Below, in pieces: positions 27,209 to 40,560 of a stretch of 64,000 nt of DNA (its first letter is position 1; each line of letters opens with the position of its first letter). The notes under the pieces were generated by a model. The model was given only the letters and a program-made list of their open reading frames with translations. It was not told the DNA's origin and did no database searches. Both the position numbers and the translations under genes were made by a program. This DNA is from Pusillimonas sp. (GTDB lineage: Bacteria > Pseudomonadota > Gammaproteobacteria > Burkholderiales > Burkholderiaceae_B), in contig NZ_JAJUFE010000009.1 of assembly GCF_029263785.1 (NCBI RefSeq), positions 1-64,000 on the forward strand, read 5' to 3'.

Positions 27209-27634
27209 ATGACTCGTACCCTTCTTGCCGCCGCAGCGGCTGTTGCTGTCTGCTTTGCCGTTCCTGTCGCTATGGCCGGCGAACCTGCCGTGCTCAAGGC
27301 ACCTCCGGGGAACTCTTACAAGGCCGTGAGCTCATTGGTAAAGCTGCCGGATTTCATTCCGGGCATGGGTCAACTTTTTGTGGATCCCAATACCCTGCCG
27401 GCAGGCCCCTTCCTGGGCTACGACCGGGAGGGCAAACTGGTCAACACCACCTACATGATCCCCGTTTCGCTGATGAAGGCGGATATGAATCTGAAGGATC
27501 TCAAAGCGCCTGCCGGCACTGTCGACCACGTAGATATTGTCTACAACGCGGGGCACCCAGGGGTTGAAGAACCTCATATTCACATCGTGCTCTGGAATGT
27601 GCCTGCCGACCAGGAAGCGCGGGTCGCAAAATGA
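27209..27634 (+). CDS. Exported TTHB210-like protein
   Basis: 141 residues with a cleavable signal peptide (cleavage near A24, VAMA-GEP). The mature domain contains a short His motif PHIHIVLW near residue 122 and an N-terminal VYNAGHPGVEEPH stretch that could bind metal. It resembles the small TTHB210-like family; in Thermus the namesake gene belongs to an ECF sigma regulon, which fits the sigma gene found here two genes downstream. The assignment is from memory of the family and is moderate. Overlaps the cupredoxin gene by 4 bp. Confidence 0.6.
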   Translation: MTRTLLAAAAAVAVCFAVPVAMAGEPAVLKAPPGNSYKAVSSLVKLPDFIPGMGQLFVDPNTLPAGPFLGYDREGKLVNTTYMIPVSLMKADMNLKDLKAPAGTVDHVDIVYNAGHPGVEEPHIHIVLWNVPADQEARVAK

Positions 27635-28155
27635 CATCGCTTGTTGAGCAGCCCCTGCGTCGCCAGTTGGTGATGGCAGGCGCCGGACTGGTATTGACCT
27701 CGATCGCCGTCAGGCGAGTGCTTGCAGCGAACGAAATGCAAATCAGTATGGCGGGCACCGCAAGCGGATCCCACGTATGGTTTCGCCCGCGCGGGCTTTG
27801 GGTAAGCGTGGGGCAAGCGATTCGGTGGGTGAATGACGATGCAGGAAACGTACATACGGTCACCGCCTACCATCCCGCAAACAGAAAGCCGCTACGAATT
27901 CCTGAATCTGCCAAGGGGTGGGATTCGGGCTACTTGATGCCGGGTGAATCATTTGTCTGGGTGTTTGCCACGCCGGGCGTGTACGACTACTTTTGCCTTC
28001 CTCACGAACACGCGGGCATGGTCGGGCGCATTGTGGTGGGTGACAAGCCTGCAGCCGACCCGCCCTACCGGGCAACGGATAGCAAGCTGCCCGAGGTGGC
28101 TCTATCCAGCTTTCCCACCGTGGAAGACATCTTGAAAAACATCATCGTGGAGTAG
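27631..28155 (+). CDS. Periplasmic cupredoxin (plastocyanin-like, type 1 copper)
   Basis: 174 residues, starting within the stop of the previous gene (ATGA). A Tat-like signal (LRRQLVMAGAG) is followed by a cupredoxin fold with the type-1 copper ligands H75 (NVHTV), C122, H125 and M130 in FCLPHEHAGM, the C-x2-H-x4-M spacing of plastocyanins. It likely shuttles electrons or handles copper in the periplasm. It sits between the TTHB210-like gene and an ECF sigma factor, all co-directional. Confidence 0.85.
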   Translation: MTSLVEQPLRRQLVMAGAGLVLTSIAVRRVLAANEMQISMAGTASGSHVWFRPRGLWVSVGQAIRWVNDDAGNVHTVTAYHPANRKPLRIPESAKGWDSGYLMPGESFVWVFATPGVYDYFCLPHEHAGMVGRIVVGDKPAADPPYRATDSKLPEVALSSFPTVEDILKNIIVE

Positions 28156-28157
28156 GC

Positions 28158-28262
28158 ATGCCTTTCTCGCGTCAGATGCTCAAGGCGCTGGTGATCGACA
28201 TTGAAAAAGATCACAATACCCGTACGACGGAGCGGCATAGAGCTCACTCCTGCATGAGCTGA
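28158..28262 (+). CDS. Possible 34-residue peptide
   Basis: A short frame begins at ATG 28158, 2 bp after the cupredoxin stop, and encodes a basic peptide starting MPFSRQMLKALVIDIEKDH. Tight spacing suggests it could be translated, but there is no homology I recognise and it may be untranslated spacer before the sigma gene. The remaining gap to 28384 shows no other gene. Confidence 0.2.
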   Translation: MPFSRQMLKALVIDIEKDHNTRTTERHRAHSCMS

Positions 28263-28384
28263 CGTGGCACGCAGAGCGATGAAGCCCTGATGACGAAAGC
28301 GGTAACGCGGGGCACACTGTTGCACGATGCGAACCTGCGCCGTGAATTCCGGACTTGTCTGCAATACAGGCAACGAGAATAGCC

Positions 28385-29089
28385 ATGAAAAATGCACATC
28401 GCGAAATCAATGCTGTCTTGACCGCCCGCACACACGAAAGCGAACTGATCGAGCACGCGGCACACGGTAACGCTGACGCGTTCGCGCTCATCATGCGGCA
28501 GCACAACCAGCGCCTGTTTCGAACGGCGCGCAGCATTTTGCGAAACGATGCCGATGCTGAGGATGCACTCCAAGAGGCCTATTTACGTGCCTGGCAGGCA
28601 CTGAGCACGTTTCGTGCCGATGCCAGGCTATCCACCTGGCTGGTGCGCATCGTGGTTAACGAGTCTCTGGGGCGCTTGCGGCGCCGTGGCGCCCAACTGA
28701 TCCCACTGGACACGATCATGACCCTGCCCGACCCGAAAGCCCAGGGCGCTCTGACGGCCAGGTTCGAACAGCAACCCGAGCCCATGGCAATGCGATCCGA
28801 ACTGCGCCACGTATTGGAGGTTCATATCGATCAGTTGCCCGACCTCTATCGAACTGTATTTGTGATGTGTGCGGTCGAAGAAATGACAACGCACGAAGTG
28901 GCTTTGGCAATGGAAATACCCGAAGCGACAGTGCGTACCCGCCTGTCACGGGCACGGAAATTACTTCGTGCCGGCCTGGTCAGCGATATGGACGTCACAC
29001 TGGAAGATGCATTTTCGTTTGACGGCGAACGCTGCGACCGCATCGTGCGCGCCGTACTTGAAAAAGGCAAGGGCTTGCGGTTTCCTTGA
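28385..29089 (+). CDS. ECF-type RNA polymerase sigma factor
   Basis: 234 residues from ATG 28385, which is preceded by ACGAGAAT. Region 2 (NDADAEDALQEAYLRAWQAL, then STFRADARLSTWLVRIVVNE) and region 4 (HEVALAMEIPEATVRTRLSRARKLLR) are intact. It is somewhat longer than usual owing to a linker after region 2 and a C-terminal tail with FDGERCDRIVRAVL. No anti-sigma gene follows; the next gene is convergent. The upstream cupredoxin and TTHB210-like genes are the likely regulon. Confidence 0.9.
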   Translation: MKNAHREINAVLTARTHESELIEHAAHGNADAFALIMRQHNQRLFRTARSILRNDADAEDALQEAYLRAWQALSTFRADARLSTWLVRIVVNESLGRLRRRGAQLIPLDTIMTLPDPKAQGALTARFEQQPEPMAMRSELRHVLEVHIDQLPDLYRTVFVMCAVEEMTTHEVALAMEIPEATVRTRLSRARKLLRAGLVSDMDVTLEDAFSFDGERCDRIVRAVLEKGKGLRFP

Positions 29090-29114: not shown

Positions 29115-30341
29115 CTACGCAGCCACAGCGCCTTCCAGGGATTTAAGCGGCACCGCCGCGTCAACGGCCTGCACCCGATCTACCGGTTTACCCGCCGTAA
29201 TCAGCTTTCGGGCTGCCATGTGATCGGCCGGCATGTTGATCGATTCCACCACCTTGATTACATCGCCTTCAAAACCTATTACCGAAAACTTTCCAGTAGT
29301 CGGCTCCCCCCGTACTTCATAGTTGTACGTGGGTTGGCCAAGCCCGGCAATCTGAAGGCGGACTTCGCCCTGGTCGGACCAGAACCATGGCAAGGCGGCA
29401 TATTGCTGCTCCTGCCCCAGAAGGTTGGCGGCCACGCAACGCGCCTGATCATTGGCATTTTGCACTGATTCCAGACGAATCGGGCAACCCAGGCTATGCG
29501 ACGGAAAGCGCACGCAATCGCCTATCGCCCAAATGGCAGGGTCGGACGTTCGCAGTTGTGCGTCAACAATCACACCATCGTCGCACGGCAAGCCGGCCTG
29601 TTGAGCCAGGTCGTCGTTTGGAACCGCTCCAATGCCCACCAAAACCAGGTCGACCGCTAGCGTCTGGTCGCCGATCTGCACCGAGACGACGCGATCATCT
29701 TCGTATTCAACCTGGCTGATGCGGCTGTTGAGCTGGATCTGGACGCCGCGAAGACTGTGGTGGGCGTACAGGAACTGCGCAATGGGTTCCGATACCGACC
29801 GGCCCAGCAGTCGGCCGCCCGCTTCGAGAACCGTCACGCTCTTGCCAGACTGCGCGGCGGTGGCGGCAATCTCAAGGCCAATGAAACCACCGCCCACCAC
29901 CAATACTCGTTGGGCCGGCTCAAACTGAGCCCGCAGGCGGTCCGCGTCGGTAAGGGTACGCAAGGTGTGCACGTTGGAGAATTTTGCGGCGTCCAGCTCG
30001 GGCAGCTGGCGGGCGCGTGTACCGGTTGCCAGCACCAGCTGATCGTACGGCAGGCGTGAACCATCGCTTAAAGCCAGTTCCCTGGCCCGCCGGTCGATGG
30101 CGGTTACCGTGGTGCTGAGCTTTACCGTGACGCCATGGGTGTCGTAATAGCTTTGGGCACGCAGCCAGGCAGGCGCCGATTCTGCGTCTTTAAGATAGCT
30201 CTTGGACAAGGGGGGGCGTTGGTACGGCACATGCGGCTCGGCAGTGACCATCACCACGCGGTTGCCGGCTCCTGCCTCGGCCAGGCTGGCACATAACTGG
30301 GCGGCGGCGTGGCCACCACCAACAACTACGATTCGACTCAC
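29115..30341 (-). CDS. FAD-dependent ferredoxin reductase of the P450 system
   Basis: 408 residues from GTG 30341, preceded by GGAGAA and overlapping the marR stop by 4 bp. FAD-binding GGGHAAAQLC at the N-terminus, NAD-binding VVGGGFIGLEIAA near residue 150, an AIGDCV FAD motif near 285 and a C-terminal reductase domain place it with putidaredoxin-reductase-like enzymes that pass electrons from NADH to a 2Fe-2S ferredoxin. In this operon it most likely serves the ferredoxin at 30983 and the P450 at 31374. Confidence 0.9.
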   Translation of the reverse strand: MSRIVVVGGGHAAAQLCASLAEAGAGNRVVMVTAEPHVPYQRPPLSKSYLKDAESAPAWLRAQSYYDTHGVTVKLSTTVTAIDRRARELALSDGSRLPYDQLVLATGTRARQLPELDAAKFSNVHTLRTLTDADRLRAQFEPAQRVLVVGGGFIGLEIAATAAQSGKSVTVLEAGGRLLGRSVSEPIAQFLYAHHSLRGVQIQLNSRISQVEYEDDRVVSVQIGDQTLAVDLVLVGIGAVPNDDLAQQAGLPCDDGVIVDAQLRTSDPAIWAIGDCVRFPSHSLGCPIRLESVQNANDQARCVAANLLGQEQQYAALPWFWSDQGEVRLQIAGLGQPTYNYEVRGEPTTGKFSVIGFEGDVIKVVESINMPADHMAARKLITAGKPVDRVQAVDAAVPLKSLEGAVAA

Positions 30342-30955
30342 GAATTCTCCTTCTTTCTCTTGCGGGCCGGTTTTGATGCAGGCGCGCACTGCGACTTGAG
30401 AAACGCCTGCGTCGCTTTCTCGACCTCGGGCAAATTAGCGTGCAGGCGCCACAACATTTCCAATAAAACCGGCACTTCTTCAGGCTCGAGACAGGACAGG
30501 AACGCGCGTTCGCGTGTCATGGCTACCGCCTTGATTTCGTCATGCTTGCGCCGACCGGCCTCGGTCAGGGTGGCATATCGCACGCGGCCGTCCTTGGGAT
30601 CATGCGAGAACTTGATCAGCCCCATCTCGTACATGCTTTTGAAGGCACGACTGACAGATCCCTTGTCCATGCCGATCAGGCGACAGACCATGTTGACCGA
30701 GACTTTTTCGTCCAGCGCCAGCATGACCAGTACGCGCCAGACTTCTATTCCGACGCCAAAATGTTTGCGATAGACCGATGCCGCGCCCCCCGCCAGCTTC
30801 GTGGTAATGAAAGTGAAGTAAGCGGGTGCGTAATGCTCCAGGTCAATCGCGCTGGATAGCCAAGGCTTGGCATCGGGCTGTTCGATTTCGGGCTTTTTGG
30901 TGGTTGCTGCGATGCGCTTGCGTGAGGCCGGCCGCGTTAAAGAGGGTTTTCTCAT
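30338..30955 (-). CDS. MarR-family regulator of the P450/ABC operon
   Basis: 205 residues. A basic N-terminal tail (about 30 residues) precedes a MarR winged helix (VSVNMVCRLIGMDKGSVSRAFKSM, with wing SHDPKDGRVRYATLTEAG), and the C-terminus ends in a lysine-rich tail. It lies inside the P450-ferredoxin-reductase operon, so it is the likely ligand-responsive regulator of aromatic acid uptake and oxidation. A candidate site is the palindrome at 37278-37291 upstream of the first gene. Confidence 0.87.
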   Translation of the reverse strand: MRKPSLTRPASRKRIAATTKKPEIEQPDAKPWLSSAIDLEHYAPAYFTFITTKLAGGAASVYRKHFGVGIEVWRVLVMLALDEKVSVNMVCRLIGMDKGSVSRAFKSMYEMGLIKFSHDPKDGRVRYATLTEAGRRKHDEIKAVAMTRERAFLSCLEPEEVPVLLEMLWRLHANLPEVEKATQAFLKSQCAPASKPARKRKKENS

Positions 30956-30982
30956 CGTATCTAACGCGACGCTGTGGCCGCG

Positions 30983-31303
30983 CTACTGCTGTGTTTCAGG
31001 AAGATAAACCGTCAACTCCATCCCCTCTGCCACGACCAACTGGCACCCCAGACGGCTGGTTGGTTTAAGTGGACTTGTCGTGCACTCGAGCATTTCCTGC
31101 TCGGGAGCCGAAATGGGCGGGAACTTGTCCATGTCTTCTTCGTTGAGATACACGTGGCAAGTCGCACACATGGCAGAGCCACCACATTCTCCCACAATTC
31201 CGGCAAGCCCATTGTTGACCGCCGCCTGCATTACGGAGGTTCCAGGCTTTACCTCAAGCTCGGTTTCCTGACCCAGATGATCAACATATCGAATTTTTGC
31301 CAC
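30983..31303 (-). CDS. 2Fe-2S ferredoxin (adrenodoxin/putidaredoxin type)
   Basis: 106 residues. Cluster ligands C40, C46, C49 and C87 have the adrenodoxin-type spacing (ECGGSAMCATCHVYL, then RLGCQLVV). It is the electron donor between the FAD reductase at 29115 and the CYP199A-like P450 just upstream, comparable to the HaPux partner of CYP199A4. A 9-bp hairpin separates it from the P450 gene. Confidence 0.93.
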   Translation of the reverse strand: MAKIRYVDHLGQETELEVKPGTSVMQAAVNNGLAGIVGECGGSAMCATCHVYLNEEDMDKFPPISAPEQEMLECTTSPLKPTSRLGCQLVVAEGMELTVYLPETQQ

Positions 31304-31339
31304 AACTACCTTCCTACAGTGTTCTATGTGTATTTCATC

Positions 31340-31361
31340 GGCCGGCTCACACGAGCCGGCC
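31340..31361 (-). other. Intercistronic hairpin between P450 and ferredoxin genes
   Basis: GGCCGGCTC (31340-31348), loop ACAC, GAGCCGGCC (31353-31361) form a perfect 9-bp stem in the 70-bp gap. The minus-strand transcript has no U-run after it, so it is more likely an mRNA-processing or stability element than a terminator. Read on the plus strand it is followed by TTTT, but no plus-strand gene ends here. Confidence 0.5.
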
Positions 31362-31373
31362 GGCCTTTTACAG

Positions 31374-32588
31374 TTAGTGCGGAATCAGGCGCACAGGAAG
31401 CGAACCCAGGGATCGCAAGGTGTTGTTCAGACGCCGTTGCGGTTCGCCGGTGATTTCAATGCGCTTGACGCGCTTGGCCAGGGCCGACAGAACGAGCTCG
31501 CCTTCCATCCGTGCAATGGCCTGGCCAACACAACCGTGGATTCCGGTACCGAACGCCATATGGCCGGTCGCCTTGCGATCGATGTCGAAGACCTCCGGGT
31601 TTTCCCAGTGTCGGGGATCGCGGTTTGCCGAGGCAAGAAAGGTCAGGACCTTCTGGTTCTCGCGCATCTGCACGCCGGCGAACTCCAGATCGGTGTTGAC
31701 GGTACGGAAGAAGGTCTGCACCGCGCCGTCGTAACGCAGGCTCTCTTCAAACGCCGCACGTGCCCTGGAAGGATCCGCTGCCAGCTTGTCATATTCGCCC
31801 GGGTACTCGGCCAGCGCATGGATGGCGTTACCGATACCGTTGACCGTGGTGTCGACCCCTGCCGACAGGAAGGAACGCACCAGCATGGGCGCCTCTTCCA
31901 TAGTGATCTCTCCGCCCTCGGCTGCCTGATAAATCTGGTCGCCAAACCCATTGGGACGGAGATTCTCACGCTGGCACTGCGTCATGATCCAATCGCGGAC
32001 GGGCTCATAGCGCTCAACTGCGTCCTGGAAGATCTTGTTGCGCGGTCCGAAGGCGTTGAACACCATATTGCCGTACAGCAGCAGGTTCTCGCGCCCTTCT
32101 TCGGTCAGGCCCAGCGCATCCGGGAACACCTTGAGGGGGTAGACCTCGGCCAGATCCTTGATGATGTCAACTTCGCCCTGCTCGACCAGCTTGTCCATCA
32201 GGGTTTCAGCTTCTTTCTGGAAATCGGCCTTGATCTGCATGACCACCTTGGGTGACAGGATGCGCGACAAGATGGCTCGCGACCGCGTGTGCTGCGGCGG
32301 ATCGGCCTCAAGAATCAGGCTGGGCGGACGAAACGGCTTTTCGGTGCGGAAGTTGGCCAGCCCCACACCCGCCGACGAAATAAAATTTTGCCAATCGGTC
32401 ATGACGGCATGCACCTGCTCGTGGCGTGCAACGGCCCAAATACCATATTTTTCGAGCCATACAACCGGTCCGGCGTCCCGAAGCTCTACGTGATAAGGAT
32501 AAGGATCCGTCAGGAACTCTTCGCTGAACGGATCGATGTCCAGGCGCGGAATTGCGTTTTCCTGAGTATTGTCTTGAGCGAACTGCAT
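31374..32588 (-). CDS. Cytochrome P450 of the CYP199A type
   Basis: 404 residues. Oxygen-activation D246-T247 in LSAGVDTTVNG, ExxR (E282/R285) and the haem loop FGTGIHGCVG with C353 are present. Overall it resembles CYP199A2/A4 of Rhodopseudomonas along its length. The CYP199A4 carboxylate-binding residues have equivalents R87 and S90 (KPFRPPS) and R238, S239, S242 (VRSFLSAG); the two active-site Phe of VFNAFG are also kept. These enzymes O-demethylate or hydroxylate para-substituted benzoates such as 4-methoxybenzoate. The whole electron chain is encoded in the same operon. Confidence 0.92.
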   Translation of the reverse strand: MQFAQDNTQENAIPRLDIDPFSEEFLTDPYPYHVELRDAGPVVWLEKYGIWAVARHEQVHAVMTDWQNFISSAGVGLANFRTEKPFRPPSLILEADPPQHTRSRAILSRILSPKVVMQIKADFQKEAETLMDKLVEQGEVDIIKDLAEVYPLKVFPDALGLTEEGRENLLLYGNMVFNAFGPRNKIFQDAVERYEPVRDWIMTQCQRENLRPNGFGDQIYQAAEGGEITMEEAPMLVRSFLSAGVDTTVNGIGNAIHALAEYPGEYDKLAADPSRARAAFEESLRYDGAVQTFFRTVNTDLEFAGVQMRENQKVLTFLASANRDPRHWENPEVFDIDRKATGHMAFGTGIHGCVGQAIARMEGELVLSALAKRVKRIEITGEPQRRLNNTLRSLGSLPVRLIPH

Positions 32589-32602
32589 AGTGTTCTCCTG
32601 TC

Positions 32603-33331
32603 TCAGCCGGCTTGCGCTACCGGCACTTCGGCGACCGAAACGTAGCGGTCGAGCAGTTGTGAATCTTCCAGCAAAGCTTGCGCTTGGCCGACATGTACGA
32701 TCGTGCCGTGATCCATGATCAGCGCACGATTCGAGAATGCGAGCGCCTCTTGCACCTTCTGCTCGACGAGCAGAATGGCAACGCCTTCCTCGCGACTGAG
32801 CGTTTCAAACGCTTCCATAAGTTCTTGACAGATGATGGGTGCCAGGCCTTCAAGGGGCTCGTCCAGGAGCAAAAGCTTGGGGTCGCCCAGCAAGGTCCTG
32901 GCTACGGAAACCATCTGTTGCTCCCCTCCGGACAGCTCGGCACCGCCATGATGGCGTCGCTCGTGCAGGCGTGGGAAGAGCTTGTACGCGCGCTCGATGC
33001 CCAACTTCGGTTTGCGTTGCAGGCCGGCAATCAGGTTCTCTTCAACCGTCAGCGAGGGGAACACGTCTCGTGTCTGAGGTACGTAACCGATTCCCATACG
33101 GGCGCGCGCCACGGTGTTGAGGCGGGTAACGTCAGAGCCATTCCAAATGACCTTGCCGCTACGCCAGACTGTCAAACCCATAATGGTTTTGAGGGTTGTC
33201 GATTTGCCGACGCCATTGCGACCCAGCAGGCACACCCTTTCGCCGGGTGCAATATGGAACGACACGCCGTTAAGCACGGTAAGCGGGCCGTAGCCGGCCA
33301 CTGCGGATTCAAATTCAAATAAATGCGTCAT
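32603..33331 (-). CDS. Branched-chain-type ABC transporter ATP-binding protein (LivF-like)
   Basis: 242 residues. Walker A GRNGVGKST, signature LSGGEQQMVSVART and Walker B LLLLDEPLEGLAP are intact. It is the shorter, LivF-type ATPase of HAAT-family importers and overlaps the LivG-type gene by 4 bp. It is followed 14 bp later by the P450 gene, showing that uptake and oxidation are transcriptionally linked. Confidence 0.93.
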   Translation of the reverse strand: MTHLFEFESAVAGYGPLTVLNGVSFHIAPGERVCLLGRNGVGKSTTLKTIMGLTVWRSGKVIWNGSDVTRLNTVARARMGIGYVPQTRDVFPSLTVEENLIAGLQRKPKLGIERAYKLFPRLHERRHHGGAELSGGEQQMVSVARTLLGDPKLLLLDEPLEGLAPIICQELMEAFETLSREEGVAILLVEQKVQEALAFSNRALIMDHGTIVHVGQAQALLEDSQLLDRYVSVAEVPVAQAG

Positions 33332-34077
33332 GCCAGCTCTGCCTTGCCAAGGTATACCGCACGAACGACCTCATTCTTGCGGATTTCGTCTGGAGTGCCT
33401 TCTGCCAGGACTGCCCCGTTGGCCAGGACCACAATGCGGTCGGCAAACCGGAACACCAGATCCATATCGTGTTCAATAATGATCACGGCCAGGTCCTTTG
33501 GCAGCAAGGTCAATGCGTTCAGGATCAGTTGCGCCTCACCTTGTGGCACCCCTGCCATGGGCTCGTCCAGCAACAGCACTTTCGGACGCAGCGCCAGGGC
33601 CAGCGCAATCTCCAGTTGCCGCTGGTCGCCATACGCCATTGACTCGGGCGTAGCCATAGCCAGATGAGTGAGGCGCAGCTCTTCCAGCAGGCTCATGGCT
33701 TCGTCCACCACGGGTTTGTAGTTCCAGCGGTTGCGCCACATGTTCTTCAAGCTGCCTTCACGCTGGTGAATGGCCATGGCCACCTGTTCAACCGCCGGCA
33801 GCCCAGGAGCAAGCTTGGAAATCTGAAACGTGCGAACCAATCCGTTCTGCACGCGCCGATGCGCCGGCCAACGGGTGATGTCCTGTCCATTCAGGGAAAT
33901 GGTGCCTTGATCTGAGTGCAGGAATCCGGCCACCTGATTAACCAGGGTTGTCTTGCCGGCGCCGTTGGGGCCAATCAGGGCCAGGCGTTCGCCAACGGAC
34001 AGACTGAGGCTGACGTCGTTGGTGACTTTGAGCCCACCAAAAGCCTTATTGAGGTTTTCGACTTGCAAGATACTCAT
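33328..34077 (-). CDS. Branched-chain-type ABC transporter ATP-binding protein (LivG-like)
   Basis: 249 residues from ATG 34077 (MSILQVENLNKAFGG), overlapping the livM-type gene by 4 bp. It has Walker A GPNGAGKTTLVN and Walker B VLLLDEPMAGVP; the signature region reads MAYGDQRQLEIALAL, the usual YGxQR form of LivG proteins. Pairs with the LivF-like ATPase to drive the permease pair. Confidence 0.92.
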   Translation of the reverse strand: MSILQVENLNKAFGGLKVTNDVSLSLSVGERLALIGPNGAGKTTLVNQVAGFLHSDQGTISLNGQDITRWPAHRRVQNGLVRTFQISKLAPGLPAVEQVAMAIHQREGSLKNMWRNRWNYKPVVDEAMSLLEELRLTHLAMATPESMAYGDQRQLEIALALALRPKVLLLDEPMAGVPQGEAQLILNALTLLPKDLAVIIIEHDMDLVFRFADRIVVLANGAVLAEGTPDEIRKNEVVRAVYLGKAELA

Positions 34078-35069
34078 GCGCGCCTCCTGAACATCGTCAC
34101 GAATGGCGCGAACGCTCGCTGCAAGACCCGTACGACAAAGCCCCTGGGCAGAAACACAACCACCATGAGCAAAACGCCAATCACAAACAACCAGTGGAAG
34201 GGATTGGCCGACGAGGCAAAGTGGTGAATGCCCATGAACAAGGCCGTACCGATGATTGCACCCCACAGGTTGCCCAGACCGCCCAGCACAAGCATGACCA
34301 GGGCTTCTGCAGAAAGGTTGAATCCGAGACTGTCCAGACCAACCACCTGAGTGATCTGCGCCGACAATCCGCCTGCCAACCCTGCAATCAGACCCGACAA
34401 GACATAAAGCTTGAGCAGATAGGGATAGATCTGCGTACCGTTGGCCTGCATGCGATCACGATTCTCGCGAATGCCCTGGCAGGCCAGACCGAATGGAGAT
34501 CGCATGACGCGACGCAGGAACACATAGCACAGCAGCAAGACGATGGCGCTATACCAATAGCCGGTCACGCCGAACATGTCGAATTCGAAATAACCAAATA
34601 TGGGGCCGACCATGAAGCCTGACAGCCCGTCGTCACCCCCGGTGACCGACTGCATCTTGCTGGCAAGATTCTGCAGGATCTGGGCGACGGCAATCGTTAG
34701 CATCAGGAATGTCAGGCCTTGATAGCGAACCAGAAAAGCCCCTGACACCAGCGCCACCAGCCCTCCCACCAGGGCCGCCAACAGCAGGCCGACCAGAGGA
34801 TCAGCGGTAAAGTGCATCGCGCAAAGGCCGGCAGCATAGGCGCCCACACCATATAGGGCGGCGTGGCCCAAGGTGGGCAGGCCCGCGTAGCCGGTGACCA
34901 GGTCGAGCGACATCACGAAAATGGCCAGGATCGCAACGCGAGTCAGAATCAAGGTTTGACCCGGCATGGCCCAATACAGCACGGCCATCAGGATCAGGCC
35001 GGCGAGTATCGGCATCCAGTTCAATGAACGGGATTGCACTGCCGGCAGACGTATGGATGCGGTATGCAT
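34074..35069 (-). CDS. Branched-chain-type ABC transporter permease (LivM-like)
   Basis: 331 residues with about nine membrane helices and the LivM coupling segment (GLACQGIRENRDRMQANG). It pairs with the LivH-like permease at 35072; their genes are separated by 2 bp. Part of the aromatic acid importer inferred for this operon. Confidence 0.92.
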   Translation of the reverse strand: MHTASIRLPAVQSRSLNWMPILAGLILMAVLYWAMPGQTLILTRVAILAIFVMSLDLVTGYAGLPTLGHAALYGVGAYAAGLCAMHFTADPLVGLLLAALVGGLVALVSGAFLVRYQGLTFLMLTIAVAQILQNLASKMQSVTGGDDGLSGFMVGPIFGYFEFDMFGVTGYWYSAIVLLLCYVFLRRVMRSPFGLACQGIRENRDRMQANGTQIYPYLLKLYVLSGLIAGLAGGLSAQITQVVGLDSLGFNLSAEALVMLVLGGLGNLWGAIIGTALFMGIHHFASSANPFHWLFVIGVLLMVVVFLPRGFVVRVLQRAFAPFVTMFRRRA

Positions 35070-35071
35070 GC

Positions 35072-35929
35072 TTATCTCCTAAGTATGCCGTGCGGACGTA
35101 CGGCCAGCAGCAAGATCATGGCAACGTAGAAAAAGAAGTTGCCATAACCGGAAGCCAGGTAACGGGCGGCGGTGTCGACGATGCCCAGCAGCAGGGCTGC
35201 GCATAGCGTGCCCGAAATACTGCCCAGCCCACCGACGGACACCACCACCAGCATCAACACGAGATACTTCAACGGGTAGTAAGGCTCCAGAGGCATCAGT
35301 TCGGCACCCATCACTCCGCCCAAGGCAGCCAGGCCGGCGCCCACGGCAAAGGTCATGCACTGCACCAGGCGGATATTGATGCCAAGTGAAGCCGACATGC
35401 CCGAGTTGTCGACTGATGCCCGCAGCCAGATACCGAAGCGGGTACGCGTTACCAACCACCAGAGCAAAGCCACCACAACCAGACCGGAGATAACCACAAC
35501 CACACGCTGCTTGGGCAAGGTCCGATCACCAAGGCGCATGCCGCCCTGCATCCAGTCCGGCAGTGGCAGTTGCTGTATGTACGCCCCCGCCAGAAAGTTG
35601 ACCAAGGCAATACACGCAAAGGTGAAGCCAATGGTGAAAAGCACTTGCTCGAGCTCGGTTCGTCGGTATAAACGCCTGAATACGGTGGCCTCGACCGCAG
35701 CGGCCAACACCATGGTGAATACGATGCCCGCCAGAACGCTGGCCATGAAAGGCCAGCCCTGCTCGCGCACCAGTATGGCGGCAACATAGCCACCCACCAT
35801 GGCGAAGGCGCCGTGCGAGAGGTTGATGAACCGCATCAACCCCATGGTCACGGACAACCCGACGGAGATGATGAAAAGCACCATCCCGTACACGATGCCA
35901 TCGATCAAAATATTGCTCAGATGAGGCAC
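35072..35929 (-). CDS. Branched-chain-type ABC transporter permease (LivH-like)
   Basis: 285 residues with about eight membrane helices. Conserved LivH features include GLSVTMGLMRFINLSHGAFAMVGGY near the N-terminus and the coupling helix RTRFGIWLRASVDN. It is the second gene of the operon, 27 bp after the substrate-binding protein. Confidence 0.92.
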   Translation of the reverse strand: MPHLSNILIDGIVYGMVLFIISVGLSVTMGLMRFINLSHGAFAMVGGYVAAILVREQGWPFMASVLAGIVFTMVLAAAVEATVFRRLYRRTELEQVLFTIGFTFACIALVNFLAGAYIQQLPLPDWMQGGMRLGDRTLPKQRVVVVISGLVVVALLWWLVTRTRFGIWLRASVDNSGMSASLGINIRLVQCMTFAVGAGLAALGGVMGAELMPLEPYYPLKYLVLMLVVVSVGGLGSISGTLCAALLLGIVDTAARYLASGYGNFFFYVAMILLLAVRPHGILRR

Positions 35930-35956
35930 GGAAAGCTCCCGGTTGTTGAATAGCGC

Positions 35957-37123
35957 TTACTGCGCCAGCCCGTGATCAGGCTGCATGCCGAAGTTCTCGA
36001 TCTCGGTGTTCTGCAACAGGCCGTCACTGCCACGCTCGACCTTGCGCAGATACACGTTCTGCGTAATGTGGCGGCTTTCGGGATCGATCCGGGCCGGTCC
36101 GCGCGGGCTTTCCCACTCGTAACCCTTGATCGCAGCAATAGCCTTGTCGCCATCCTTTTTGCCATCAGTGGCTTCGACCATCTTGTGGATGAGGTGCATG
36201 CCGTCGTAGGCACCGACCGAAGCGTAGTTCAGCAGGGCATCAGGAGCTTGCGCCTTCATGGCTTCAGCAAACTTGCGGTTGGCATCAGAATCATGCGCCG
36301 CCGAGTAGTGGAAGGAAGTCAGCAGGCCCAATGCGGCATCACCGAACTTCTGCAGGTCGAACTCATCCATTTCGGCCGTGCCCAGGAAAGCAATGCCGGC
36401 TTCACGCAAACCGTTCTGGTTGTATGCGTTCACAAAGCCCAGATTTGGTGGGCCACCGGGCAGGAACACGTAAGCCGCTTGTGCGCCGGATGCCTTGATG
36501 CGCTGCGCGAACGGGCTGAAGTCATTGGTGCTCATGGGCATGCGAATGCGCTCTACAACCTCGCCGCCCAGCTTGGTGAACTCGGAGTCGAACGCCTTTT
36601 CGGCGTCTACGCCCGGTGCGTAATCCATGACGGCAGTCACGACCTTCTTGTACCCCTGGTCGTAGGCCCACTTGGCCACAGGCTGGGTAACCTGCCACAA
36701 CGTGTACGAGCTGCGGACAAAATAATCCGAGCGAGGCGTGATCGAAGACGTCGCGGCGTTGAAAATTACCGTGGGAGTCTTGGACTGTTGAATCAATGGC
36801 GCAACGGCCATGGCATTAGGGGTAAAGACGATGCCGCCAAGATAGTCGACTTTGTCGTTGACAATGAGTTCCTGTGCAGCGGTGCGGACACCGGCGGGGT
36901 TCGGGCCGCCACTGTCGCGATAGATGATCTCGACGGTTTTGCCGGCGAACTTGCCATCTTGCAGTTTGGTGTATGCTTCGGCACCGTCCTTGAAGAGCTT
37001 GCCATAGTGGGCAAATGGGCCCGAGAATGGCGCGATGATTCCTACCTTGACGGTATCTGCGGCCGCCGGCCCAGCTACGGCCCAGGCCATGCAGGCTGCC
37101 AAGCCCAAACGCAGCAATTTCAT
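35957..37123 (-). CDS. Periplasmic substrate-binding protein of a branched-chain-type ABC transporter
   Basis: 388 residues. A signal peptide (1-22, cleavage after PAAA) is followed by a type-I periplasmic binding fold starting VKVGIIAPFSGPFAHYGK. In related operons these proteins bind aromatic acids or phenylpropanoids as well as amino acids. Here the co-transcribed CYP199A-like P450 argues for a para-substituted benzoate or cinnamate ligand. It is the first gene of the operon, with a promoter and operator-like palindrome in the 206-bp gap upstream. Confidence 0.9.
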   Translation of the reverse strand: MKLLRLGLAACMAWAVAGPAAADTVKVGIIAPFSGPFAHYGKLFKDGAEAYTKLQDGKFAGKTVEIIYRDSGGPNPAGVRTAAQELIVNDKVDYLGGIVFTPNAMAVAPLIQQSKTPTVIFNAATSSITPRSDYFVRSSYTLWQVTQPVAKWAYDQGYKKVVTAVMDYAPGVDAEKAFDSEFTKLGGEVVERIRMPMSTNDFSPFAQRIKASGAQAAYVFLPGGPPNLGFVNAYNQNGLREAGIAFLGTAEMDEFDLQKFGDAALGLLTSFHYSAAHDSDANRKFAEAMKAQAPDALLNYASVGAYDGMHLIHKMVEATDGKKDGDKAIAAIKGYEWESPRGPARIDPESRHITQNVYLRKVERGSDGLLQNTEIENFGMQPDHGLAQ

Positions 37124-37253
37124 GTTCTGTCTCCTTGTGAGGGCGGCTATACCACACGCCCCTTCGCGAAAAAAACCATTGGCAATCGCAAGGCCTCAAG
37201 GCCAATGAGATATGCCGCCACTTGTCGATGCAGCTCCTGCATTGACCCGCGAA

Positions 37254-37291
37254 TGGTAGGACCGAACTAATTGGCAAGTCAACTTGTTGAC
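37254..37291 (-). promoter_or_regulatory. Candidate promoter and operator of the ABC/P450 operon
   Basis: On the minus strand, TTGACT lies 18 bp before TACCAT. The inverted repeat GTCAAC-N2-GTTGAC (37278-37291) covers the -35 region, a typical MarR-like operator layout. It is about 155 bp upstream of the substrate-binding protein start. The link to the operon's MarR gene is inference. Confidence 0.45.
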
Positions 37292-37329
37292 ATACCAACC
37301 ACATTAAATTAGGGGTAAACCCTAAACAG

Positions 37330-37923
37330 CTAGCGTATTTCCTGGGCTTCCAAAAGCAATCGATTCAGTTCCGGAGAATCGTGACAAATGCTGCTGTAAA
37401 CAGCTCGTGCACGCGATGAAAGCCTTTCATAGCCCCAGCGGGCCCTGCGCAGTGTTTCTTCGTGGCCTTCTCGCGCGTAATAAAGGGGAAGGTTATGATC
37501 AAAGTACGACAGGCTGTCGGCGTCTTTAAGCAAGTCACTTTGGGCATCGCCACCCGTTTCATGACGCCGTATCAATAATGAAACATCTTGCCGGATTTCG
37601 CCCGACACGCCGGCGTCTGAAAGTATTTGATCGGTGATCTGTGCGCCCAGATCAGCGTGCGCCTGCTTGAATGAGTCGTAATCGGCGAACTGATGCCGTT
37701 GAAACCTGTCCTGCCTCGCTCGCTCGATATCGTGGGCCAGTGCCGCAAGCTGCAATGCAACGCCAGCTTGCGGATCCAGCCGCCTCAGCCAGTACAAAGT
37801 GTTTTCAGCATGGCCGGCATCCTCCGGTACGGGTGAGCCGGCCAGCACGGCGCGAATCTTTGCCGTGGCAAGGCGCAAATGGGGGTCACTAGCCAGGTCA
37901 AGCATCGGCCATGACGTGCTCAC
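37330..37923 (-). CDS. HD-domain (DUF4202-like) putative phosphohydrolase
   Basis: 197 residues from GTG 37923; ATG 37905 is an alternative start. An HD-type metal site is visible: an N-terminal GHAENTLYW His, then the HD pair in LAALAHDIERA, a later RRHETGGD and DADSLSYFD. Such folds hydrolyse phosphate esters. The start lies inside the coding sequence of the inositol-phosphate transferase gene, so it is translationally coupled to it. It may supply the phosphatase step that the inositol pathway needs; this is inference from position. Confidence 0.75.
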   Translation of the reverse strand: MSTSWPMLDLASDPHLRLATAKIRAVLAGSPVPEDAGHAENTLYWLRRLDPQAGVALQLAALAHDIERARQDRFQRHQFADYDSFKQAHADLGAQITDQILSDAGVSGEIRQDVSLLIRRHETGGDAQSDLLKDADSLSYFDHNLPLYYAREGHEETLRRARWGYERLSSRARAVYSSICHDSPELNRLLLEAQEIR

Positions 37924-39220
37924 GTTCTCGCAATCTGAACATGCGATGAATGACAGTGATGTTCATGATTACGGCGATCAATGCCAATGTCAGCGCCGGC
38001 AAATTCAGCAACGTTCCCGACATGACAAGCAGCGACCGTGTGTCACGCCCCATGCGCCATCTCGAAGCCGGCAAGGCACGATCTGCCTTATGTGCGCTGT
38101 AGCTCGCGACGAAACTGCCGGCAATCGCCGCCATGCCCAGCCACATCCAGGCGGGTTGATCCCAGCGCTGCATCAGATGCCAGGTCAGGGCAGCCAGAAC
38201 AAAACCATCGGCATAGCGGTCGAGCAAGGCATCGAACCAGCCGCCGTATTCAGACGGCGCCAGGCGCAACCGCGCCAGTTCTCCGTCGCAGCCGTCTACC
38301 ACTGACGCCAGTTGAACCAGCAACCCGCCAATCGCCAGCAGCCAGTACGACCCTGCAGCCATGCAAAGCGCAGCGAGGCAGGCAATGCCGAATGCCAGCA
38401 TCGACACTTGATTGGGTGTCAGGTCATACGCAAGAAAATACCGGGTAAACCAACGGGACACTGGACGATTCAACCGCTTGGCGACCAGACCGTCAGATGA
38501 TTTGCCCGCAGCCCATGCAAGCAATGCGGTTTCGGCTTGCGCGTGCATTTCCGGCGTGTCGACATCCTGCCAATAATGGCCATCTATGCGGTGGGCCTGA
38601 AGTCGGCCTTCATCTGCCAGCCCCTGCATAAGGTCGGTGATTCGTGTCTTGCCGCGCGCAACGCACTCTTCCATACGCGAAAACACTTCGGGCTGGCACA
38701 GAAAGGCGCCGGTATCGAACCCGTCGTACTCTGGCAAACCTTTGCCGATCCGGGTGACACGATCACCCGTCAGCATGACCCGCGTGACATCGTGCAGGTC
38801 AATGTCCTTGCGCGAGCGTTGGCCGTCTACAGCCAGCATTGCGGGCGCCCAGCTACTTGAACTGCACAATGAAGCGATCAGCTCGGGAACATACACATGG
38901 TCAGCCATCAAGAGCAGGAACGGCCCCTTGACATAGGGCGCAGCCGCCAGAAGGGACGTACCATTCTCGGCGCTGCTCCAGTCTTGGTTATAGACGAGAC
39001 GAGCCTGATAAGAGCTGTCGTGCAGCCAGCTTTCTATGGCTGCATGGGCATGACCAGTCACGATAATGATGTCGTCGACGCCGCATTGCTGGAGCGTGCG
39101 AATGCTACGCTCCAGCAAGGGCAAGCCCGCTACGGGATGCAGGGGCTTGACCGGAGCCAGGGCGCGCAAGCGCGAGCCCCGGCCGGCGGCGAGCACCACG
39201 GCTTGCCTGGGTTTGCTCAT
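37898..39220 (-). CDS. Bifunctional inositol-1-phosphate cytidylyltransferase / CDP-alcohol phosphotransferase (IPCT/DIPPS-like)
   Basis: 440 residues from ATG 39220. Residues 1-235 are a nucleotidyltransferase (VVLAAGRGSRLR, MADHVY with D107, YDGFDTGAFLC, QDVDTPE). Residues about 255-440 are a membrane CDP-alcohol phosphotransferase with D309-x2-D312-G-x2-A-R and, later, D330-x3-D334, with several membrane helices. The fusion matches IPCT/DIPPS, which makes CDP-inositol and joins it to inositol phosphate. It follows inositol-phosphate synthase by 2 bp. Whether the product is a soluble inositol phosphodiester or a lipid cannot be told. Confidence 0.85.
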   Translation of the reverse strand: MSKPRQAVVLAAGRGSRLRALAPVKPLHPVAGLPLLERSIRTLQQCGVDDIIIVTGHAHAAIESWLHDSSYQARLVYNQDWSSAENGTSLLAAAPYVKGPFLLLMADHVYVPELIASLCSSSSWAPAMLAVDGQRSRKDIDLHDVTRVMLTGDRVTRIGKGLPEYDGFDTGAFLCQPEVFSRMEECVARGKTRITDLMQGLADEGRLQAHRIDGHYWQDVDTPEMHAQAETALLAWAAGKSSDGLVAKRLNRPVSRWFTRYFLAYDLTPNQVSMLAFGIACLAALCMAAGSYWLLAIGGLLVQLASVVDGCDGELARLRLAPSEYGGWFDALLDRYADGFVLAALTWHLMQRWDQPAWMWLGMAAIAGSFVASYSAHKADRALPASRWRMGRDTRSLLVMSGTLLNLPALTLALIAVIMNITVIHRMFRLREREHVMADA

Positions 39221-39222
39221 TC

Positions 39223-40338
39223 TCAGGCAGCCTTGATTTGCTCGACGCACTGAGAAATGAACTGCTCGACTTCGGCGTGGGCCTGATCGTCAGTCATCTG
39301 GCGTCGCGGGTGCTTGCAGAAGTACGCAGAGGCCGAATCAATAACGCCACCCTGGCCGTTGAGCAACGCAAGCTTGGCACAACGAATCATGTCAATCGCC
39401 ACTCCGGCAGAGTTCGGCGAATCCTCAACCGACAGACGAAGCTCCAGATTCATCGGAACGTCGCCGAAAAGCTTGCCCTCCATGCGAAGGAAGCAAACCT
39501 TGTTGTCATTCTGCCAAGGTACATAGTCCGAAGGTCCGACATGAATGTTCTGGTCATCCAGACGGCTGGCTGCCACGGCCTGAACCGCTTCGGTCTTGGA
39601 CTCGCGCTTGGACGCCAGACGACTCTGGTTCAGCATATTGAGGAAGTCGGTATTACCCCCGGTATTGAGCTGGTAGGTTCGCTCAAGCTTCACGCCCCGG
39701 CGTGCGAACAGGTCTGTCAGTACGCGGTGCGTGATGGTGGCGCCCAACTGTGCCTTAATGTCGTCGCCAATCAACGGAATGCCCTTGCGAGCAAAGCGCT
39801 CTGCCCATTCCGGGTCACTTGCAATGAACACGGGAATGCAGTTCACAAAAGCCACGCCCGCGCGCAAGGCACACTCGGCATAGAAGCGTGTGGCCTCTTC
39901 CGATCCCACCGGCAGATAGTTGAGCATGACTTCGGCGCCACTGTCCTTCAGGATTTTCACCACGGCGTCCATGTCCGCTTCGCGCTGTGAGGACTTGACG
40001 AAGCTGCGCGAAGCGGGGTGTTCGGCCATGTGCTCGGAGTAGCCATCCAGCACGGCACCCATACTGACCTTGACGCCCGAGGGCGGCAGATCTGCCTGGA
40101 ACACGGTTGTACAGTTGGGTTCAGCGAAGATCGCTTCGTGGACATCGCGACCGACCTTGCGCTCGTCGATGTCAAATGCCGCCACTACGCGGATGTCGCT
40201 GGGGCCGTAGCCGCCGACCTTCCAGTGCATCAGACCGATTGCGTCCTCTGGTGACTTGTCGCGATAGTAGTGGATCCCCTGAATCAGGGAACTGGCGCAG
40301 TTGCCCACGCCAACAATGGCGATTTGAATTGCATTCAT
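39223..40338 (-). CDS. ino1: Myo-inositol-1-phosphate synthase (actinobacterial/archaeal type)
   Basis: 371 residues from ATG 40338 with GGAG 9 bp upstream. NAD-binding GVGNCASSLIQGIHYY, VVAAFDIDERKVG, MLNYLPVGSEEA and GDDIKAQLGATITHR are hallmarks of the short synthases of actinobacteria and archaea. It converts glucose-6-phosphate to L-myo-inositol-1-phosphate. It begins a three-gene operon with the cytidylyltransferase fusion and the HD protein, driven by a strong promoter and a long structured leader. Confidence 0.93.
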   Translation of the reverse strand: MNAIQIAIVGVGNCASSLIQGIHYYRDKSPEDAIGLMHWKVGGYGPSDIRVVAAFDIDERKVGRDVHEAIFAEPNCTTVFQADLPPSGVKVSMGAVLDGYSEHMAEHPASRSFVKSSQREADMDAVVKILKDSGAEVMLNYLPVGSEEATRFYAECALRAGVAFVNCIPVFIASDPEWAERFARKGIPLIGDDIKAQLGATITHRVLTDLFARRGVKLERTYQLNTGGNTDFLNMLNQSRLASKRESKTEAVQAVAASRLDDQNIHVGPSDYVPWQNDNKVCFLRMEGKLFGDVPMNLELRLSVEDSPNSAGVAIDMIRCAKLALLNGQGGVIDSASAYFCKHPRRQMTDDQAHAEVEQFISQCVEQIKAA

Positions 40339-40560
40339 ATAAGAATCTCCAATAAAAGCTCGCCGTCCGCGCTGACGCACGCAACCAACAGCTGGGTTTC
40401 ACAGCGTGGCAACGCGATCGGGATGAGAGCAGATATCGTCCGGCACATAGAGGTGCCGGCATCAGCGGCGTCGAGGGATCGACATGCTGATGAGCGGCCG
40501 TAGCCAAGGCTGAAAAGCTGAGCTACGGAAGGAAGATGCCCGTCTTCTTTTTCGTAAGGG
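40339..40560 (-). ncRNA. Structured 5' leader of the inositol operon
   Basis: Between the predicted transcript start near 40561 and the ino1 ATG there are about 220 nt without a gene. In transcript order, they hold a 7-bp stem (40528-40522 with 40504-40498) and a two-part hairpin (outer 40492-40486 with 40466-40460, inner 40483-40479 with 40474-40470, 4-nt loop). Directly abutting it is a 7-bp stem (40459-40453 with 40446-40440). A less regular region follows to the ribosome-binding site. This density of perfect stems suggests a cis-acting RNA. I do not recognise a known riboswitch class in it. Confidence 0.5.

Follow-up and report, generated by a model that had tools for sequence, protein, structure and literature searches.

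The locus described here raises the question of why a cytochrome P450 resembling CYP199A4 should be encoded together with a complete ATP-binding cassette (ABC) importer and a regulator. It lies in a window of 64,000 nucleotides (positions 1 to 64,000 of contig NZ_JAJUFE010000009.1, assembly GCF_029263785.1) from Pusillimonas sp., a host with a genome of 2.7 Mb in 94 contigs. Nine closely spaced minus-strand genes run from position 37123 to position 29115 and encode, in this order, a periplasmic solute-binding protein (SBP), two permeases, two ATPases, the P450, a ferredoxin, a MarR-family regulator and a flavin adenine dinucleotide (FAD) reductase. They probably constitute a MarR-repressed operon for the uptake and oxidation of para-substituted benzoates, most likely the conversion of 4-methoxybenzoate to 4-hydroxybenzoate, which would then enter the protocatechuate branch. 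The operon is not a chance assembly, because the P450 scores 504 bits against CYP199A4 and the nine genes are found in the same order and orientation in all 15 family genomes in which the P450 is at least 71% identical. The features are as follows.

35957 to 37123, minus strand: SBP of the RPA0985/RPB_2270 type, 388 amino acids (PF13458)
35072 to 35929, minus strand: HAAT permease 1, LivH type, GTG start (PF02653)
34074 to 35069, minus strand: HAAT permease 2, LivM type (PF02653)
33328 to 34077, minus strand: ABC ATPase 1, LivG type (PF00005 and PF12399)
32603 to 33331, minus strand: ABC ATPase 2, LivF type (PF00005)
31374 to 32588, minus strand: CYP199A cytochrome P450, 404 amino acids (504 bits to CYP199A4)
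30983 to 31303, minus strand: [2Fe-2S] ferredoxin, putidaredoxin type (PF00111)
30338 to 30955, minus strand: MarR-family regulator (PF12802)
29115 to 30341, minus strand: FAD ferredoxin reductase, GTG start (PF07992 and PF14759)
37270 to 37299, minus strand: operator-like palindrome GTTGGTATGTCAACAAGTTGACTTGCCAAT, probably bound by MarR (11/15 positions pair)
37253 to 37282, minus strand: promoter-like pair TTGACT-18-TACCAT, with the -35 box inside the palindrome

From the SBP gene to the reductase gene, the intergenic gaps are 27, 2, -4, -4, 14, 70, 27 and -4 bases. For the reductase, the GTG at 30341 is the most likely start and gives a four-base overlap with the MarR stop codon; the start of the longer open reading frame, at 30389, is less likely. 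The HAAT importer has its full complement of one SBP, two PF02653 permeases and two PF00005 ATPases. The original prediction had placed a CYP199A-like P450 with a complete electron chain inside an uptake operon, and all nine genes are indeed present at the coordinates that it gave, on the minus strand.

The P450 can be assigned to CYP199A on the basis of its identity, pocket, position in the tree and fold, in agreement with that prediction. It is identical to CYP199A4 at 222 of 394 positions (56.3%) in a gap-free alignment. P450 subfamilies are conventionally delimited at 55% identity. Published CYP199A members are as little as 51% identical to each other (PMC11530827, in the part available). 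Residues R87, S90, R238, S239 and S242, already proposed to bind the carboxylate group of the substrate, align with R92, S95, R243, S244 and S247 of CYP199A4, R87, S90 and S239 making up the Arg/Ser/Ser carboxylate anchor, and the agreement extends to 11 more positions: the pocket residues I92, L93, V176, F177, F180, A243, V290 and F293, the heme cysteine C353 and the acid-alcohol pair D246 and T247 are all identical, so that 16 of the 16 pocket and catalytic positions compared are the same in the two enzymes. An AlphaFold2 model (predicted local distance difference test score, pLDDT, 93.0) matches CYP199A4 with a Z score of 63.1 and a root-mean-square deviation of 1.0 over 393 residues; the top 17 PDB entries in the fold search were all CYP199A or PbdA structures (Z 61.5–63.1), and the next P450 scored 45.9. 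The whole genome contains a single PF00067 match, which is this P450.

The electron chain was also recovered, Pfam and PDB matches identifying both the ferredoxin and the FAD reductase. Ferredoxins of the [2Fe-2S] type are recognized by the spacing of their cysteines, and the ferredoxin displays this spacing at Cys40, 46, 49 and 87, with a fifth cysteine at position 74; it scores 108.5 bits against putidaredoxin. The best PDB match of the reductase is 3fg2 (313 bits), which we take to be a member of the CYP199A2 electron chain, ahead of putidaredoxin reductase (277 bits). The operon thus encodes both partners of a class I bacterial P450 system.

The Pfam and NCBIfam names of the importer genes refer to branched-chain amino acids or urea, a label that we rejected as a misnaming; the NCBIfam matches listed for the five genes (for the two ATPases, the best 25 of 184) were all below cut-off. 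Both by sequence and by fold, the SBP is closest to 4f06 (202 of 365 positions identical) and 4evs, the latter being RPA0985, and its identity to the R. palustris aromatic-acid binders RPA0985 and RPB_2270 is 53–55%. In the fold search, performed with a model of pLDDT 82.7 built from 15 sequences, 4f06 (Z 43.7, 54% identity) and 4evs (Z 43.2, 53%) were followed by 4ey3 and 4eyg (45%). According to their PDB titles, 4evs contains 4-hydroxybenzoate, 4ey3 p-hydroxybenzoic acid and 4eyg vanillic acid. RPA0985 is stabilized by 29.5 degrees in the presence of 4-hydroxybenzoate, and in R. palustris propenoid acids are bound by separate proteins, RPA1789 and RPA4648, which are less than 25% identical to it (both from the accessible part of PMC3223731). 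Benzoates are thus favored over cinnamates, because the closest solved relatives of the SBP are R. palustris aromatic-acid binders. Uptake of a para-substituted benzoate or cinnamate had been linked to its oxidation; the benzoate half of this link is strengthened by these matches and by the co-inheritance of SBP and P450, and the cinnamate half is not.

The distribution of the package was investigated in genomes of the same family, of the order and of the phylum. The P450 was matched at an E-value of 1e-80 or better in 19 of 200 family genomes, and in 15 of these 19, including the genome studied here, it was at least 71% identical. SBPs at least 71% identical were found in exactly the same 15 of the 200 genomes and at the same places, the next best being 54% identical. 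In a sample of 398 phylum genomes, 17 had a P450 match at 1e-100; the four matches among 399 genomes sampled from the order were all among those already counted. Among the 22 further phylum loci, the complete nine-gene arrangement recurs once, in another family of the order (L126), and twice without the reductase (L143 and L145). Five Alcaligenaceae records (L002–L005 and L009) among the first 40 loci also show the order and are not additional to the 15 genomes. In a tree of 61 P450s (14 of the first 40 loci, the family and phylum loci, the window P450 and CYP199A4), a single clade (support 98/97) unites the 16 nine-gene loci and contains exactly the set showing the nine-gene order; the P450s of L143 and L145 are on a separate long branch. 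In the SBP tree, 4f06 and L010, in which an importer lies 4.4 kb downstream, are long branches of unsure placement. An in-frame TAA that might have broken the SBP gene in G017 was found to be the gene's own final stop codon.

A 30-bp palindrome, GTTGGTATGTCAACAAGTTGACTTGCCAAT, overlies the promoter upstream of the SBP gene and is conserved at this place in all 16 nine-gene loci, with 1–8 mismatches to the consensus (when each upstream stretch was shuffled 200 times, the best shuffle had 10–13). Its core pattern, with up to two mismatches allowed, matches a single place on either strand of the 2.7-Mb genome, with no control matches and none expected in shuffles of the window. The site was not found (13–15 mismatches) at six other loci (L143, L145, L010, L102, L103 and L098); in L143 and L145 the corresponding place is occupied by a different inverted repeat. 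The promoter scan of the window was not above chance (two found, 3.2 expected), so that the weight lies on conservation across loci: a -10 box with at least four of six matches at a spacing of 17–18 bases is present in 13 of the 16 nine-gene loci (three of six in L126), and the promoters of L086 and L087 were read by eye as TTGACA-17-TAGACT, the script having placed the -35 box on a neighboring repeat. The terminator scan was likewise not above chance (six against 8.6), and no terminator is claimed. The regulator itself has a winged-helix MarR domain (PF12802, above cut-off), with 3nrv as its best PDB match. Its pairing with the P450 is supported because 11 of the 22 phylum loci have a divergent MarR gene (37–44% identity) next to that of the P450. 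Judging from the sequence, the operon's own MarR protein may well bind the 30-bp site.

Genes for subsequent steps are present elsewhere in the genome. One contig (C58) encodes PobA, PcaH, PcaG, PcaI, PcaJ and a PcaR-type regulator, all above NCBIfam cut-offs, and a glutathione-dependent formaldehyde dehydrogenase is encoded on another (C78). PobA was found in 14 of the 15 genomes with the cluster and in 26 of the 185 others (Fisher p 2.6e-10, a value that overstates independence because the genomes are related). The proposed pathway is built on what was observed, namely which genes are present and in what order, the residue identities, their conservation across loci, the operator-like site and these downstream genes; from this we infer the substrate, its transport, the binding of the repressor and the ligand of the repressor. 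The SBP would bind an aromatic acid in the periplasm and the five-part importer would carry it into the cell, where the FAD reductase would take electrons from NAD(P)H and the ferredoxin would relay them to the P450. This enzyme would hold the carboxylate by R87, S90, R238 and S239 and oxidize the para substituent, so that 4-methoxybenzoate would undergo oxidative O-demethylation to 4-hydroxybenzoate and formaldehyde; the former would be passed on by PobA, PcaHG and PcaIJ, and the latter removed by the glutathione-dependent dehydrogenase. MarR bound to the palindrome would cover the -35 box until released by an aromatic acid.

Several findings weigh against this pathway, and the main doubt concerns the cargo of the importer. 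The strongest rival explanation, unlikely in our judgement but to be taken seriously, is that the importer really carries 4-hydroxybenzoate, or several benzoates, both hydroxylated and methoxylated, and that the P450 merely widens the diet, the two being linked by shared regulation rather than by a shared substrate. The SBP complexes with a titled ligand contain 4-hydroxybenzoate, the predicted product, or vanillate, and not 4-methoxybenzoate, and the strong stabilization of RPA0985 by 4-hydroxybenzoate (PMC3223731, accessible part) also favors this explanation. Importers of this kind are common, with 32 PF13458 matches in this genome (from 10 to at least 75 across 14 genomes), and a lone SBP near a P450 therefore proves little. 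Four other SBPs of the genome are 44–47% identical to that of the operon. Two of these (47 and 45%) are encoded on the pob/pca contig, by adjoining aromatic-type genes (L082, 2165–4734, minus strand) near pcaHG, pcaIJ and pobA, with no permease recognized beside them. These two would be better placed to handle 4-hydroxybenzoate, and the operon SBP is co-inherited with the P450. No SBP or permease match was found at any of the 31 Actinomycetota loci among the first 40 by a search sensitive to relatives of these genes only (L006, L012, L032 and L041 are short, and the P450 of L041 is more distant, at 31%), which indicates that the enzyme does not require a linked importer of this type. Finally, one cluster genome that is 90% complete (G017) has no PobA match, and in another (G082) PobA is matched only in part, close to the end of a contig.

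The natural substrate might also be a different para-substituted benzoate, for example a pollutant or a 4-alkylbenzoate, and the native reaction a hydroxylation instead of an O-demethylation. Both PbdA and CYP199A4 act on p-ethylbenzoate as well, by hydroxylation and desaturation (PMC11530827, available part), and the residues do not discriminate, but 14 of the 15 cluster genomes also encode PobA, an enzyme that needs 4-hydroxybenzoate, and we consider this explanation improbable. A role in the use of cinnamates or coumarates is very improbable, although CYP199A enzymes accept some cinnamates. No coenzyme A (CoA) ligase or hydratase is encoded among the nine genes, and propenoid acids are bound in R. 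palustris by other, distant SBPs (PMC3223731, same part). Least credible of all is an amino-acid importer that simply adjoins the P450, as the family names (from NCBIfam matches below cut-off, where listed) would imply; the SBP groups with aromatic-acid binders both in sequence and in fold, amino-acid binders coming far behind, and the whole gene order is kept in all 16 loci of the P450 clade. Uptake and oxidation of para-substituted benzoates, most likely 4-methoxybenzoate, remains our preferred reading.

A broader proposal, which we put forward tentatively and would not yet back, is that proteobacterial CYP199-type P450s as a rule travel with a dedicated periplasmic capture system, that several transporter lineages have been joined to them, and that uptake and oxidation of aromatic ethers form one inherited unit, under a single-target MarR regulon in the present case. 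Three kinds of transporter occur beside such P450s: RPA0985-like importers (the window clade; L143 and L145), importers 24–42% identical (L098–L103) and single SBP genes (several loci of f49 genomes). An SBP match was present at 19 of the 22 phylum loci, against about 0.15 expected per 19.5-kb stretch (62 per 8 Mb in G234), the two figures coming from different detection methods. Six family loci with P450s of 42–53% identity have importer genes (24–42%) upstream and a ferredoxin, an SBP being detected in three of them. A full linked importer is not universal, since L138 gave matches to the P450, ferredoxin and reductase only. Tandem CYP199-like P450s (42–45%) are encoded beside a more distant importer and a ferredoxin at L099, L100 and L101; both copies at L099 differ from CYP199A4 in pocket residues, and a different substrate is likely for the tandem enzymes. 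The CYP199-like P450s (53%) of L140 and L142, in f49 genomes, encoded beside a PF13458-type SBP gene, have Leu, Pro and Pro at the Arg/Ser/Ser anchor and probably use other substrates.

The genes flanking the operon are of other kinds. Directly beyond its end, the plus strand (27209–29089) encodes a small protein that looks exported, a copper protein resembling plastocyanin or azurin, and a sigma factor in which only regions 2 and 4 are present. On the other side, on the minus strand (37330–40380), a DUF4202/HD protein adjoins a fused nucleotidyltransferase/CDP-alcohol phosphotransferase (37898–39250; 283 bits against a cut-off of 580) and a myo-inositol-phosphate synthase family protein (39223–40380; PF01658). 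The latter two resemble the archaeal di-myo-inositol phosphate enzyme pair, which is unusual for such a host.

Because the conserved operon brings together an importer, redox partners, a regulator and an operator-like site, it would supply a ready set of parts for lignin-derived methoxybenzoates. It offers a testable inducer-responsive switch, and a means of finding out what is carried by one of the numerous importers whose sole annotation is 'branched-chain amino acid'. No paper joining CYP199A4 with an importer was found in searches of the open-licence literature, and no description of the conserved package and its control site was found there, including the available parts of PMC11530827, PMC3223731, PMC10374108 and PMC6079105. 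CYP199A4 is a much-studied model P450, with 52 PDB entries of one sequence. The present system resembles CYP199A4 and CYP199A2 of R. palustris in its P450 (56% identity, all 16 compared positions identical to CYP199A4) and its class I electron chain, and differs in having importer, regulator, ferredoxin and reductase in one operon; the loci used for this comparison are those of f49 genomes whose P450s cluster with CYP199A4 in the tree, where the MarR gene is divergently oriented and a full unit of nine genes was not seen. PbdA and PbdB of Rhodococcus jostii RHA1, a host of another phylum, provide a second parallel. PbdA, 51% identical in the fold match, is a CYP199A O-demethylase with the same carboxylate triad; it holds the carboxylate by Arg84, Ser87 and Ser237, O-demethylates p-methoxybenzoate and, unlike the P450 considered here, is described with one cognate reductase, PbdB (PMC11530827, available part). 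The SBP has the same fold as RPA0985 and RPB_2270 and shares with them the segments FTPNAMAVAPL and NAATSSIT. In R. palustris, the genes of the ABC importer hbaEFGHI likewise adjoin benzoate/hydroxybenzoate genes, which serve to catabolize what it carries (PMC3223731, accessible part), although that system serves an anaerobic CoA route and its SBP, RPA0668, is more distant from that of the operon (26%). Every component is of a known kind, and what is new is the conserved package together with its control site.

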